Position numbers and translations under genes: made by a program. The notes beneath the pieces were generated by a model. That model saw nothing but the letters and a program-made list of their open reading frames with translations. It ran no database searches and was not told the DNA's origin. Shown one piece after another: positions 8,170 to 22,009 of a DNA stretch of 64,000 nt. Numbering within the stretch: the stretch's first letter is position 1; every line of letters begins with the position of its first letter. The DNA is from Salinibacterium sp. SWN248 (GTDB taxonomy: Bacteria; Actinomycetota; Actinomycetes; Actinomycetales; Microbacteriaceae), in assembly GCF_015864575.1 (NCBI RefSeq), contig NZ_JADYWW010000001.1, positions 1,387,719 to 1,451,718 on the forward strand, read 5' to 3'.

Positions 8170-8892
8170 TTACGCCAAGGCCCAATCTCGCCACACGGTA
8201 TCGAGCGGCGAGAGGTGGGTTTCTCGTCCAAGCCACCGTGCAAGGCCGCCCGGCTCCTCGAAGTCGAGCACGACTGCACCGAGATCGATGGACGACGCGG
8301 GTGCCCGCACGCCAGCAAGCAACACAGTATCCATGACACGCTCGGCACCAAGGTGACCCCAGACGGGTGCGCTTCCATCGAAATCTTGCTGCTCAATCAA
8401 CACGGGGACAGCGTTTGCCGAGACGGAGGTTCGGGTCATCACCCGACCGCCTTTTTCCCCTTCGCGCCCTAACACAAGAGTCTCCCGAATGAGCGCTACA
8501 GCGCCTTCATCCAACTCGACGTCAAGGACCCGCTCGACGCAGGCGCCGTCGGCGATGATGAACGGGAGGGTTGCCCAAGACAATTGGGCTCCAGCCTGCA
8601 GCCGGACCTGAATCGTCATGGTCGCAGACTGCCCCTCACCGTCGTACGCAACCATTCCGCCAATGTCTTCGAGGGTGAGGCGGCAACCCGCGCCGACCGT
8701 AATTTCGATCGCAACAGTGTCGCCGCCGAGCAAGAGCGCGCCCCCGGCGACCAGAGCGACATCCGCTGACTGATCCGTGCAGGAGATGAGTCGCGGTATG
8801 AGTATTCCTGCCCTTAACTCCACGCGCGCGTTCCCTGACGCGTTCGCGTTTACCGAGACTCGCGTGACTCGCGAAGCCGCATCAGACTGCAC
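8170..8892 (-). CDS. ureD: Urease accessory protein UreD
   Basis: The 240-residue protein shows UreD/UreH features: LLLGGDTVAIEITVGAGCRLTLEDIGG, the QLSWATLPFIIADGA stretch and GGRVMTRTSVSAN. UreD is the scaffold that binds apo-urease and recruits UreF and UreG during nickel insertion. It is the last gene of the urease set and starts with GTG 9 bases after ureG. It is somewhat shorter than many UreD proteins (about 270 residues), which is common in actinobacteria. Confidence 0.88.
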   Translation of the reverse strand: MQSDAASRVTRVSVNANASGNARVELRAGILIPRLISCTDQSADVALVAGGALLLGGDTVAIEITVGAGCRLTLEDIGGMVAYDGEGQSATMTIQVRLQAGAQLSWATLPFIIADGACVERVLDVELDEGAVALIRETLVLGREGEKGGRVMTRTSVSANAVPVLIEQQDFDGSAPVWGHLGAERVMDTVLLAGVRAPASSIDLGAVVLDFEEPGGLARWLGRETHLSPLDTVWRDWALA

Positions 8893-8901
8893 GCGAAGGC
8901 C

Positions 8902-9687
8902 TTAAGCTCTCACTGGATGGTCGTGGTCGTGGTCGTGGTCGTGGTCGTGGTCATGGCCGTGGTCTGAACTGGGACTGTGGGTGTGAATCACAGCTTGGCC
9001 GCCCTCATCGAGGTGACTATGCGGCGCCATCGGACCGGGGTCTTGGGGGCTGTGGGTTCCGGAGCGATAGGCGGCGAGCATTTCGAGCACCCACAGCCGT
9101 AACTGGGCAATCGAGTTGTCATCCGTTCGCGACAGGGCAATAACGGGCCGACCTTCGCGCGCGTGAGTTGCGTCAGAGACCATCGTCGCGACATCAACGC
9201 CGACGTAAGGCGCGAGATCTGTCTTGTTCACGACGAGCAGATCGGCGCGGGAAATGCCCGGGCCACCCTTGCGCGCTACGTCACCACCACCGGCGACATC
9301 AAGCACGAAAATTTGCGCGTCTACGAGGGCGGGAGAGAACGTCGCCGTCAAGTTGTCGCCGCCGGACTCGATGATGACAATGTCGAGGGGAGCGAAGTCG
9401 GCTTCAAGATCTTCGGCAGCCAGCAGGTTCGCCGTCACGTCATCGCGGATCGCTGTGTGCGGGCACGCTCCCGTCTCCACAGCACGGATTCTCTCGGGAT
9501 CCAGTACTCCAGCAGACCGCAGGAATCGCGCATCCTCATCCGTATAGATGTCGTTGGTAATGACACCCAGTCTCAGTTCCTCACCAAGGGAACGACACAG
9601 AAGTGCGATGAGCGACGACTTTCCGGTTCCCACTGGACCGGCTATTCCCAGACGTAGTGCGCGGGAGGGCGCGTTTTTTTCAGGCAC
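8902..9687 (-). CDS. ureG: Urease accessory GTPase UreG with histidine-rich C-terminal tail
   Basis: The 261-residue protein has the P-loop GPVGTGKSS at 17-25, the metal-binding CPH motif at 75-77, a [12 protein letters not shown] switch region and the base-recognition NKTD. UreG hydrolyses GTP to drive nickel delivery to urease through UreF and UreD. Residues after about 225 are an extra tail that ends in an alternating His/Asp run ([17 protein letters not shown]). Typical UreG proteins are about 205-225 residues and often lack this. No ureE gene is present, so the tail may replace the nickel-binding role of UreE. The tail is encoded by a hexanucleotide repeat. Confidence 0.95.
8919..8960. 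repeat. GGTCGT hexanucleotide tandem repeat inside ureG
   Basis: Five perfect copies of GGTCGT (8919-8948) are followed by two variants (GGTCAT, GGCCGT). On the coding strand they encode His-Asp pairs. Because the unit is six bases, copy-number change would lengthen or shorten the metal-binding tail without a frameshift. Confidence 0.9.
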
Positions 9688-19719: not shown

Positions 19720-19754
19720 GTAATGTGCTCCTTCTTGGTTGGTGATGATGAGGA

Positions 19755-21182
19755 TCAGACCGCGAGTGCGGGGTCTGTCCGGAAGCGATCGTTCAGCATT
19801 TCTCCACGGAAGTCCTCGCGTGGGAACTCGCCGTCAGCGAAGACGACGACGCCGCCGCATACGGTCACGCTCGGCCACATCCGCAATGTCATGCCGGCGT
19901 AGGGCGAGTAATCGATGGGCGAGTGAAGATCTTCGATCCGTACGACTCGCTCACCTTCCTCGAGGATGACGAGGTCGGCATCCATACCGATTGCGACCTT
20001 GCCTTTGCCTTCGAGACCGAATCTCACGGCGGCATTGCGCGAGGTGAGTTCGATGAGGCTTTCCATGCTCATGCCGTTGTCCACGACAAGGTGCGTCAAG
20101 AGCAGCGGGAGCATGAGGCCGATACCGGGCAATCCAGGCTTGGAAGTTTCCCAGTCAGTTTTTGCGGCGCTTGGCCATTCGTTGTGGTCGGATCCGAAGA
20201 AATCGATCTCGCCCGCGAGAACTGCCTCGGTAATGGCGTCGGAAAGACTGCGGTCGCGGATGGGCGGGGCAACTTTGCCCTCCGGGCCAATTGCCGACTC
20301 AGTGCTGAGCACCATGTAGTGAACACATGATTCAAGCGCCGCGCCCGGGTAACCCAATGCCTTTCTGGCTTTGATCGCTTCCAAGCTCGAGACGTGCACG
20401 ATCGATACTTGGCAGCCTGCCTCTTCTGCAAGATAGAGAGCGGTCCAGGCGGCATCCCCTTCGGCGATGGTGGGGCGCGATCGCTCCCACCCTGCGAGCG
20501 AGTCGAGCCCAGCGGTGCTTTCCGTTTGCATAGCAGCGTCGACGATGTCGCCATCTTCGGCGTGCACCAGTGCTTGAGCACCGTTGGCTACGATCGCGGC
20601 GAATGCTTCTCGCATTTGCGCGTGGTTGAGGCTTCCGATTCCGCCCAGATTCTTGGCCTCTTCGCCGCGATACGGCATGAAGATCTTGAACGTGCGCATG
20701 CCTTCTTTGGTGGCCTGCTCGATTTCTGAGACTTGGCCCATATTCATGAGGCAGCCGTGGAACATCACATTGATCTGAGACTGAGCGCGTGCTGCGGCAA
20801 GGCCATCGTGGAACGAGTCAAGAAGCGACGGGGTACCGAACTGTACGTAATTGAGCGCAGTGGTGCAGCCACCGGCAAGCGCGCCGCGCGACTCAGCGGA
20901 GAAATTATCGTCCGGTCCAAGGCCGGGAATGTGGTTGTACTCGTCAGCGCGCTGGTTGATGTGAGCGTGGGAATCGATCGCACCGGGAATCACCCAGCGA
21001 CCCGCGGCATCCGTCGTTTCTGTTGCGTGGCCTAAATCTTGCACGTTGCTCGACATTGCGACGATGACGCCGCCCTTGATGCCGATGTTGTAGAGCGCGT
21101 CGTCGTCGGAACGAATTTTTGCGTTCGTGATGACGAGGTCAAGTTGCTCGGCGGGCGCGGAGGCGCTGTGATCGTGGGACAT
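19755..21182 (-). CDS. Cyclic-amide amidohydrolase (hydantoinase/dihydropyrimidinase/allantoinase type)
   Basis: The 475-residue protein has a complete binuclear metal site: His72 and His74 (DSHAHI), carbamylated Lys166 (FKIFMPY), His207 (LVHAEDGD), His263 (IVHVSS) and Asp332 (GSDHNEW). This pattern is shared by D-hydantoinase, dihydropyrimidinase and allantoinase, which open cyclic ureides or amides. I cannot tell which is right; the overlap with an unknown gene and the link to urease make a ureide such as allantoin or hydantoin plausible. I chose ATG at 21182, whose A is the last base of the upstream stop (TAATG); a start at 21197 is also open. Confidence 0.88.
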   Translation of the reverse strand: MSHDHSASAPAEQLDLVITNAKIRSDDDALYNIGIKGGVIVAMSSNVQDLGHATETTDAAGRWVIPGAIDSHAHINQRADEYNHIPGLGPDDNFSAESRGALAGGCTTALNYVQFGTPSLLDSFHDGLAAARAQSQINVMFHGCLMNMGQVSEIEQATKEGMRTFKIFMPYRGEEAKNLGGIGSLNHAQMREAFAAIVANGAQALVHAEDGDIVDAAMQTESTAGLDSLAGWERSRPTIAEGDAAWTALYLAEEAGCQVSIVHVSSLEAIKARKALGYPGAALESCVHYMVLSTESAIGPEGKVAPPIRDRSLSDAITEAVLAGEIDFFGSDHNEWPSAAKTDWETSKPGLPGIGLMLPLLLTHLVVDNGMSMESLIELTSRNAAVRFGLEGKGKVAIGMDADLVILEEGERVVRIEDLHSPIDYSPYAGMTLRMWPSVTVCGGVVVFADGEFPREDFRGEMLNDRFRTDPALAV

Positions 21183-22009
21183 TACTGTGCCATCCATTCA
21201 GTCTTCAGATAATCGGTGTCGAGGTAACGTTCGGAAAGTTGGGTGCGGTACCACTCGTCTCGCTCTGTTTCATCGAGGGCTCGGTACTCGCGCCACAGGA
21301 GTCCGATGGCTACCCCGGCGTAAAGCTGGTAGTCGAGAACATGGGCGAGCGCCTCGTGGTCGTTCAGGAGCGCGTCGGCGCTTTCAGTGGTGAGCGTTTG
21401 AGGGGCCAACGTGACGAAGTCAGCGAATGCTGCGCTCTCGACCGCTGCGAGCGAGTCAACGTGGGGTCGTCCTTCGGGGCGGGAATCGACGTACGTCACG
21501 AGATCGTCGTAAAGAGCGAGCCACTGGCTCCGTTGAGGCTCATCGAGCCAGAGCGCAGAGCTGAAGAGCATGAGGGCGTGGTGCCGGATCATCGTGTAGT
21601 CGTCCACTAGCCCGTCGAGCTGAATTTGGAGAATGTCGTTCGTGATCGACATTTGGATGCGACTGGTATCGGTCAGCAACGTGCGGTACGACGGGTTCGC
21701 GTCGAGCACCGGAGCATAAGCGATCTCGATGAGTTGGAGAAAGAATGCTGCATCAGGAAGATGCCAGATGCGGCGAACTTCTTGGCTTGAGTCCAACCAC
21801 GTCAACATGAAGTTTCCGAAAGTCCAGTCGGTCTCGTCGTCGGCGAGCACACCGACGACGTCGGCGCGATGCGCAACGGGCCCCGCTAAGGAGAGCAGGT
21901 GATCAGAATGCGACTGGGCCTTCGCTACCCACGCTGGCACATCAGCCGTGACAACGGGGGCACAGGTTGGTGCGTGGTGGTGAGGCGAGGGGAGTGAGGA
22001 AAGAGCCAC
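21182..22009 (-). CDS. Unknown conserved-looking protein heading the ureide/urease run
   Basis: The 275-residue protein matches no family I recognise. It has no signal peptide or membrane segment. It seems mostly helical, is acidic (many Asp, Glu), and rich in Trp, Leu and Tyr, for example FMLTWLDSSQEVRRIWHLPD. Residues 7-22 include a PHHHAP cluster. Its first position in the operon, directly behind the LacI-type operator, and the TAATG overlap with the amidohydrolase gene suggest a function in the same pathway or a partner of that enzyme. The start ATG at 22009 is preceded by AAAGGAACC. Confidence 0.8.
   Translation of the reverse strand: MALSSLPSPHHHAPTCAPVVTADVPAWVAKAQSHSDHLLSLAGPVAHRADVVGVLADDETDWTFGNFMLTWLDSSQEVRRIWHLPDAAFFLQLIEIAYAPVLDANPSYRTLLTDTSRIQMSITNDILQIQLDGLVDDYTMIRHHALMLFSSALWLDEPQRSQWLALYDDLVTYVDSRPEGRPHVDSLAAVESAAFADFVTLAPQTLTTESADALLNDHEALAHVLDYQLYAGVAIGLLWREYRALDETERDEWYRTQLSERYLDTDYLKTEWMAQ

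Follow-up and report, generated by a model that had tools for sequence, protein, structure and literature searches.

A predicted LacI-controlled operon of Salinibacterium that may degrade a hydroxylated pyrimidine-type ureide to urea and a C3 acid

A run of 15 genes on the minus strand of Salinibacterium sp. SWN248 (positions 8170-22009 of the window, meaning the whole 64,000-nucleotide stretch of DNA analysed) is predicted to be a LacI-controlled catabolic operon, co-transcription being deduced from the arrangement of its genes (Table 1). We tentatively propose that the operon degrades a hydroxylated pyrimidine-type cyclic ureide to urea and a C3 acid. As far as sequence comparison tells, the operon's first gene, X275, is the element that stays constant and also the one about which least is known, and the nucleoside hydrolase together with the CUT1-type importer is its exchangeable part.

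Table 1. Genes and putative operator copies of the predicted operon, with positions in the window
Feature	Position	Strand	Basis and remarks
X275, 275 aa	21182..22009	-	First gene; no described family; proposed urea-releasing enzyme, putative role
AmiH, cyclic amidohydrolase, proposed ring opener	19755..21197	-	Pfam Amidohydro_1; Tyr motif; NCBIfam below cut-offs
Nucleoside hydrolase	18760..19719	-	PF01156; top NCBIfam model UriH, 223.7 (cut-off 450)
ABC importer solute-binding protein	17385..18779	-	SBP_bac_1
ABC importer permease, UgpA-like	16409..17368	-	NCBIfam, Pfam
ABC importer permease, UgpE-like	15521..16399	-	NCBIfam, Pfam
Hyi, hydroxypyruvate isomerase-like	14660..15511	-	TIGR03234, 231.8 (below cut-off 353.45)
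GlxR, tartronate semialdehyde reductase	13767..14663	-	TIGR01505, 345.8 (above cut-off 340.75)
NicT-type nickel transporter	12711..13763	-	PF03824 over cut-off; NCBIfam models under cut-off
ureA	12409..12711	-	NCBIfam over cut-off
ureB	12044..12394	-	Pfam over cut-off
ureC	10354..12057	-	TIGR01792, 852.1 (cut-off 680)
ureF	9680..10354	-	Pfam over cut-off; no NCBIfam match
ureG, His/Asp-rich C-terminal tail	8902..9687	-	TIGR00101, 239.2 (cut-off 204.2)
ureD	8170..8892	-	Pfam over cut-off; no NCBIfam match
LacI-family regulator, divergent	22363..23379	+	Family models; kept in G621, G785 and G1144
Putative operator CTACNCGNGTAG, copy 1, closer to X275	22068..22079		Palindrome
Putative operator CTACNCGNGTAG, copy 2, closer to LacI	22214..22225		Palindrome

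The 14 junctions of the run consist of seven overlaps (16, 20, 4, 1, 14, 1 and 8 bp) and seven gaps (35, 16, 9, 9, 3, 14 and 9 bp). The original prediction of 15 tightly spaced genes on one strand, many of them overlapping, is therefore borne out, with a largest gap of 35 bp against the roughly 55 bp claimed and overlaps at half of the junctions; the 3 bp given for the spacing between the reductase gene (GlxR) and the nickel transporter gene (NicT) are likewise correct. A consensus scan of positions 5000-24000 placed neither a terminator-like nor a promoter-like site in that gap and a minus-strand promoter-like site at 21142-21115, near the start of AmiH, but since it returned fewer sites than shuffled sequences did (11 against 13.8 terminator-like and 2 against 4.4 promoter-like), we give it no weight. 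The earlier impression that substrate uptake, cleavage of the glycosidic bond and of the ring, C3 metabolism, nickel import and urease belong to one unit agrees with a putative operator at the head only and with a conserved core. The palindrome CTACNCGNGTAG precedes X275 in each lineage and is absent elsewhere in the window, and its eight copies across four records all fall in the spaces that separate genes for LacI, X275, importers or dehydrogenases. Allowing up to two mismatches, the 14-base palindrome occurs twice in the window against 1.31 times in shuffles, 39 of 100 of which reach two, so that the count alone proves nothing; the weight of this putative operator rests on its exact form and its placement in the four records.

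The core, comprising LacI, X275, AmiH, GlxR and UreABCFGD, recurs in G785, a genome of the same genus, and in G621, from another genus, with proteins 46-82% identical to those of the window and with different surrounding genes. The comparison of gene order that the original prediction proposed thus recovers the core order in two further lineages, which makes chance adjacency unlikely. X275 heads the run in each lineage and has homologues at 52-56% identity in G785 and G621. Its distinct carriers are six genomes from about three lineages, three of these genomes being 97% identical in X275; the full core is present in five, and in the sixth a contig end falls within AmiH. In samples that overlap and that, for class, family, order and own genus, each include the genome of the window itself, carriers numbered 1 of 394 (class), 4 of 398 (family), 1 of 396 (order, with the best few candidates per genome scored) and 4 of 27 (own genus), and 2 of 13 in the genus of G621. 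X275 had no match in plasmids, and a pattern scan of named genome contigs, which detects close relatives only, returned two loci. AmiH was found at E≤1e-75 in 1 of 345 genomes when the best few candidates per genome were scored.

X275 passed the cut-off of no family in Pfam or NCBIfam and had only two matches in the PDB, with E-values of 1 and 1.1. Its homologue in G785 had no Pfam match, and that in G621 had two below cut-off, the better at E 0.0059. An AlphaFold model built from three near-identical sequences reached a pLDDT of 39.7.

In G785 and G621 the importer is of the NMT1/THI5 type (PF09084 in G621; the G785 protein is 73% identical), and their cluster stretches yielded no homologue of the nucleoside hydrolase, as expected for uptake of a free base. 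A D-2-hydroxyacid dehydrogenase adjoins the operator in both (69% mutual identity; no NCBIfam cut-off passed), as expected for hydroxypyruvate. GlxR exceeds the TIGR01505 cut-off in G621 and falls just short of it in G785 (338.2 against 340.75); Hyi scores 247.7 against TIGR03234 in G785 (cut-off 353.45) and was not found in the G621 cluster stretch. The original prediction stressed the nucleoside hydrolase and the CUT1 importer and did not single out X275; both are indeed present, but they vary from lineage to lineage, and X275 is kept. The importer families leave the substrate unfixed.

In the pathway that we propose, the substrate would enter the genome of the window as a nucleoside through the ABC importer, and the nucleoside hydrolase would free the base from ribose. 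The C4N2 ring, either 5-hydroxyuracil or its hydrate uracil glycol, would then be opened by AmiH to 3-ureido-2-oxo- or 2,3-dihydroxy-3-ureidopropanoate. X275 would probably split this opened ring, releasing urea and leaving tartronate semialdehyde or its tautomer hydroxypyruvate, which Hyi and GlxR would convert to glycerate; urease, supplied with nickel by the operon's own importer, would release ammonia from the urea. Tartronate semialdehyde plus urea minus one water gives uracil glycol, and minus two waters gives 5-hydroxyuracil. Ring opening, C3 product and intracellular urea are deduced from protein families and atom balance, and the explanation is least supported where it names a particular substrate and a function for X275. 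If urea and tartronate semialdehyde or hydroxypyruvate are made directly, a carboligase is not needed; of the earlier statement that a carboligase and the steps from ureide to urea are missing, the lack of a carboligase over cut-off holds for the four cluster genomes searched, and these reactions are better explained as unnecessary.

By score, AmiH is equally close to allantoinase, L-hydantoinase and dihydropyrimidinase, which weighs against the pyrimidine reading. All NCBIfam matches are under cut-off: the highest, allantoinase model PRK06189, scores 231.9 (cut-off 631), nearly level with a dihydropyrimidinase model at 231.4, and TIGR03178 (allantoinase) and TIGR02033 (dihydropyrimidinase) score 227.8 and 219.9 against cut-offs of 357.85 and 393.25. 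Its top PDB matches are an L-hydantoinase and an allantoinase, and it carries the Tyr motif of D-hydantoinases and dihydropyrimidinases. Were AmiH a hydantoinase, like its top PDB match, the substrate could be a five-membered ureide such as 5-hydroxy-5-hydroxymethylhydantoin, in which urea and hydroxypyruvate are condensed, with an identical atom balance and an equally good fit of the C3 enzymes. We regard this as unlikely, because the nucleoside hydrolase of the window points to a nucleobase, the Tyr motif is common to dihydropyrimidinases and, to our knowledge, no compound of this type is a common nutrient.

The position of X275 ahead of the other genes in each lineage would also suit an enzyme that acts first, hydroxylating or hydrating a pyrimidine whose opened ring then loses urea spontaneously, as ureido-carbinols such as ureidoglycolate can do without an enzyme. 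Such an order of events is distinctly unlikely, given that the run shows no recognisable cofactor motif or partner reductase and that the model of X275 offers no usable fold.

The original prediction of an allantoin/glyoxylate-type pathway with missing steps is not supported. The run shares with allantoin/glyoxylate clusters (gcl, hyi, glxR, allB) the cyclic amidohydrolase group, Hyi with GlxR, and glycerate as the C3 outlet; it lacks an allantoinase over cut-off, and adds urease, nickel import, a nucleoside hydrolase and X275. Glyoxylate carboligase exceeded its cut-off of 711.2 in none of four cluster genomes (best score 397.5; G785 and G1144 lay outside this search) and in 1 of 14 control genomes. 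TIGR01879, a carbamoylase/allantoate amidohydrolase family that is not specific for allantoate, scored above its cut-off in G000 and G621, at loci outside the cluster, and had no match in G472 and G625. Allantoicase (PF03561) was silent in the four cluster genomes and likewise in all 14 controls, and counts for neither side. One could still suppose that allantoin or another purine ureide is the substrate, with X275 in place of allantoicase or ureidoglycolate lyase and another enzyme in place of the carboligase: AmiH belongs to the allantoinase/hydantoinase group with an allantoinase model as its top NCBIfam match, Hyi and GlxR occur as in gcl clusters, and urease would handle the urea. With AmiH well short of the allantoinase cut-off, the carboligase over cut-off in none of the four genomes searched and the nucleoside hydrolase left unexplained, we give this little credence.

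Direct hydrolysis of uracil has similarly poor prospects. AmiH would yield 3-ureidoacrylate, X275 would release urea and malonate semialdehyde, and the GlxR homologue would form 3-hydroxypropionate; ring and products are equal in atom number, and the GlxR family includes 3-hydroxyisobutyrate dehydrogenase (TIGR01692, 235.2, under the cut-off of 291.6). However, Hyi and the 2-hydroxyacid dehydrogenase would be without use, GlxR scores above the cut-off of the model for tartronate semialdehyde reductase, and hydrolysing the aromatic uracil ring directly is difficult chemistry. That nucleoside salvage and urease merely stand side by side is extremely unlikely, for although the urease of G663 stands alone and the importer and nucleoside hydrolase are exchangeable, three lineages keep the core together, the run has 3-bp and overlapping junctions, and the common palindrome lies at the head only.

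Among known pyrimidine routes, the oxidative pathway (barbiturase, ureidomalonase) shares with the proposed pathway an oxidised ring and urea release, but its C3 product is malonate and its ring opener comes from a family other than that of AmiH. The reductive (Pyd) pathway shares a dihydropyrimidinase-like ring opening and yields beta-alanine, ammonia and CO2, whereas the run would yield urea and a C3 hydroxy-oxo acid and contains no recognised reductase for such a route. In the URC uracil pathway of Lachancea kluyveri, which proceeds via ribosylurea to 3-hydroxypropionate (PMC7530994), pyrimidine nitrogen is likewise released as urea, but no URC gene was recognised in the run. The operon could possibly represent a further pyrimidine-type ring-breaking route besides the four already named in the literature accessible to us.

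The run holds a nickel urease operon with the subunits UreA, UreB and UreC and the maturation proteins UreF, UreG and UreD all present. The best start of UreC is predicted at 12057 (567 aa) rather than 12330 (658 aa), because the extra stretch lies outside the family match and overlaps ureB. Within the genus, ureC occurs in 5 of 27 genomes, inside the same cluster in all four that carry X275. The fifth, G663, has an ordinary ureABCFGD cluster adjoined by UrtABC, with the same order of subunit and accessory genes and, as in the run, ureE not recognised; in the window, by contrast, the urease lies downstream of ring-cleaving genes in a genome without UrtA over cut-off. UrtA passed its cut-off in G663 alone among six genomes, in keeping with intracellular production of urea in the others.

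It is possible, at a confidence that stays low, that a dihydropyrimidinase-like enzyme opens oxidised pyrimidines derived from damaged or modified nucleic acid and that X275, as a new enzyme family, splits them into urea and tartronate semialdehyde, with urease encoded in the same operon. We found no route recycling oxidised or modified pyrimidine nucleosides in the open-access literature, where most subscription journals are absent, and the papers retrieved there on isobarbituric acid or ureidopyruvate offer, by title, nothing on catabolism. If the proposal is true, it would describe such a recycling route and provide the first functional assignment for a protein family unnamed in the libraries scanned, and internal urea production would explain the presence of urease without UrtA over cut-off in some genomes of the genus.

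The original prediction placed 15 genes on one strand, with small gaps and many overlaps and only 3 bases between the tartronate semialdehyde reductase GlxR and the NicT-type nickel transporter. All 15 lie on the minus strand, their 14 junctions comprise seven overlaps and seven gaps of 3 to 35 bp, and the GlxR-NicT spacing is 3 bp. Family searches identified a cyclic amidohydrolase (AmiH), a nucleoside hydrolase (NH), a solute-binding protein (SBP) and two sugar-importer-type permeases, a hydroxypyruvate isomerase-like protein (Hyi), GlxR, NicT, and UreA, B, C, F, G and D, while the 275-aa product of the first gene (X275) matched no family. 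Neither ureE nor an importer ATPase was recognised among the 15 genes; the His/Asp-rich end of UreG perhaps stores nickel in the absence of a recognised ureE. GC content is 0.60 in the operon versus 0.61 in the whole window.

Features of the window and related stretches, with gene orders around X275
Genome	Position (strand)	Feature
Window	5160-6116 (-)	Second nucleoside hydrolase (PF01156), close to clpP genes
Window	7428-8102	Presumably clpP (recognised by eye), convergent with operon
Window	8902-9000 (-)	UreG C-terminal His/Asp-rich repeat
Window	12057	UreC start, preferred over 12330
Window	22363-23379	LacI-family regulator, divergent from operon
Window	23396-25463 (-)	CopC-domain protein, DUF1775 protein, third protein without Pfam family, adjoining LacI
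Window	28282-34842 (+)	Second sugar-type importer (two permeases, SBP), then glycoside hydrolase family 15 and 31 domain proteins
G663	L033, 5117-13419	UrtABC divergent from ureABCFGD; ordinary urease cluster for the genus
Window type (3 genomes)		LacI, palindrome, X275, AmiH, NH, SBP, permease, permease, Hyi, GlxR, NicT, UreABCFGD
G785		Leftward NicT-like, fused permease, ATPase, NMT1-type SBP; palindrome; LacI, D-2-hydroxyacid dehydrogenase; second palindrome; X275, AmiH, Hyi, GlxR, UreABCFGD
G621		Leftward 2-hydroxyacid dehydrogenase; palindrome; leftward NMT1-type SBP, ATPase, fused permease, LacI; second palindrome; X275, AmiH, GlxR, UreABCFGD, NicT
G1144	6.4-kb contig	Importer, LacI, X275, beginning of AmiH

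X275 was found in six genomes. Four belong to the window's genus (the window's own, G472, G625 and G785) and two, G621 and G1144, to another Microbacteriaceae genus. X275 precedes AmiH in all six, and the proposed gene-order comparison found LacI, X275, AmiH, GlxR and UreABCFGD together in each of the five carriers with enough contig; the importer and NH are exchangeable, and Hyi and the 2-hydroxyacid dehydrogenase vary. Since the G785 proteins are nearer the other genus than the window (X275, 66% vs 52%; LacI, 78% vs 61%; UreC, 89% vs 81%), the comparison points to horizontal transfer of the whole cluster between genera as one unit.

Within the window's genus, ureC is present in five of 27 genomes and X275 in four, all four with ureC in the cluster; three of these are nearly identical (X275 of G472 and G625 is 97% identical to the window's), so the link amounts to about two independent cases. 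The fifth ureC genome, G663, carries UrtA, UrtB and UrtC over cut-off adjoining its urease. A search covering the UrtA kind of urea transporter found none over cut-off in the five X275 genomes searched, all of which gave weaker UrtA-like matches (best 130.7 bits, in G785, vs a cut-off of 492.75). This pattern fits intracellular urea formation in X275 genomes.

Two exact copies of the palindrome CTACNCGNGTAG lie in the 64-kb window, each in the LacI-X275 interval, against a mean of 0.07 in 300 base shuffles. A looser 14-base form with two mismatches finds the same two sites where 1.3 are expected, so the count alone is weak, and placement carries the weight of the argument. The G621, G785 and G1144 stretches hold two exact copies apiece, before X275 or in the LacI/importer or dehydrogenase/importer interval, and no copy falls within the operon in the window, L009 (G472, covered from the end of X275) or L012 (G625, covered from AmiH residue 61). 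Judged from this placement, a single regulator probably governs importer, dehydrogenase and ring-to-urease genes, with the palindrome as putative operator. The CopC/DUF1775 genes beside LacI possibly serve copper handling.

The glyoxylate carboligase reported missing is indeed over cut-off in none of the four cluster genomes (best match 397.5 bits, such matches being presumed to be acetolactate synthase). Its absence is better explained by the C3 branch not needing it than by a gap in an allantoin-type pathway. No member of the carbamoylase/allantoate amidohydrolase family was matched in G472 and G625, and the other two genomes carry one outside the cluster; the cluster is thus independent of this family, and the carbamoyl group is most simply lost as urea. 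On this simplest reading, the C3 skeleton would form with no joining of two glyoxylates. Hyi, GlxR and the dehydrogenase suit by family the pair hydroxypyruvate/tartronate semialdehyde, which, according to PMC12694930, may interconvert spontaneously, GlxR preferring the latter.

A ring equal to urea plus tartronate semialdehyde or hydroxypyruvate would account for both urea loss and this C3 product; candidates are uracil glycol (one water lost) and 5-hydroxyuracil (two waters lost). NH, or the NMT1/THI5-type importer replacing it, fits a nucleobase substrate. The proposed ring opener AmiH has an FMxYRG stretch, whose Tyr would matter for catalysis, aligning with D-hydantoinase and dihydropyrimidinase sequences, where one allantoinase and one L-hydantoinase differ; despite this, AmiH is by score no closer to D-hydantoinase and dihydropyrimidinase. 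Urea release would fall to X275, the sole protein remaining for the step; alternatively, urea might leave spontaneously and X275 make the hydroxylated ring. Counting against the pathway with X275 as urea-releasing enzyme, AmiH matches no equivalog, Hyi scores under its cut-off and was not found in the G621 stretch, the G785 GlxR falls narrowly under its cut-off, importer families leave the substrate unfixed, and X275 structure prediction gave no usable fold.

The second nucleoside hydrolase has counterparts in L009 and L012 that share 34-35% identity with NH, and permeases in loci L005 and L006 homologous to those of the second importer are 35-41% identical to the operon permeases.

To our knowledge, none of the four pyrimidine routes yields urea and tartronate semialdehyde. 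PMC12507026 names these as the oxidative, reductive, Rut and URC routes; PMC7530994 counts 'four possible modes'. Literature searches showed no operon of this kind among the papers listed. We file the run as a new form of catabolic ureide operon holding a protein of no recognised family, rather than as an allantoin operon.
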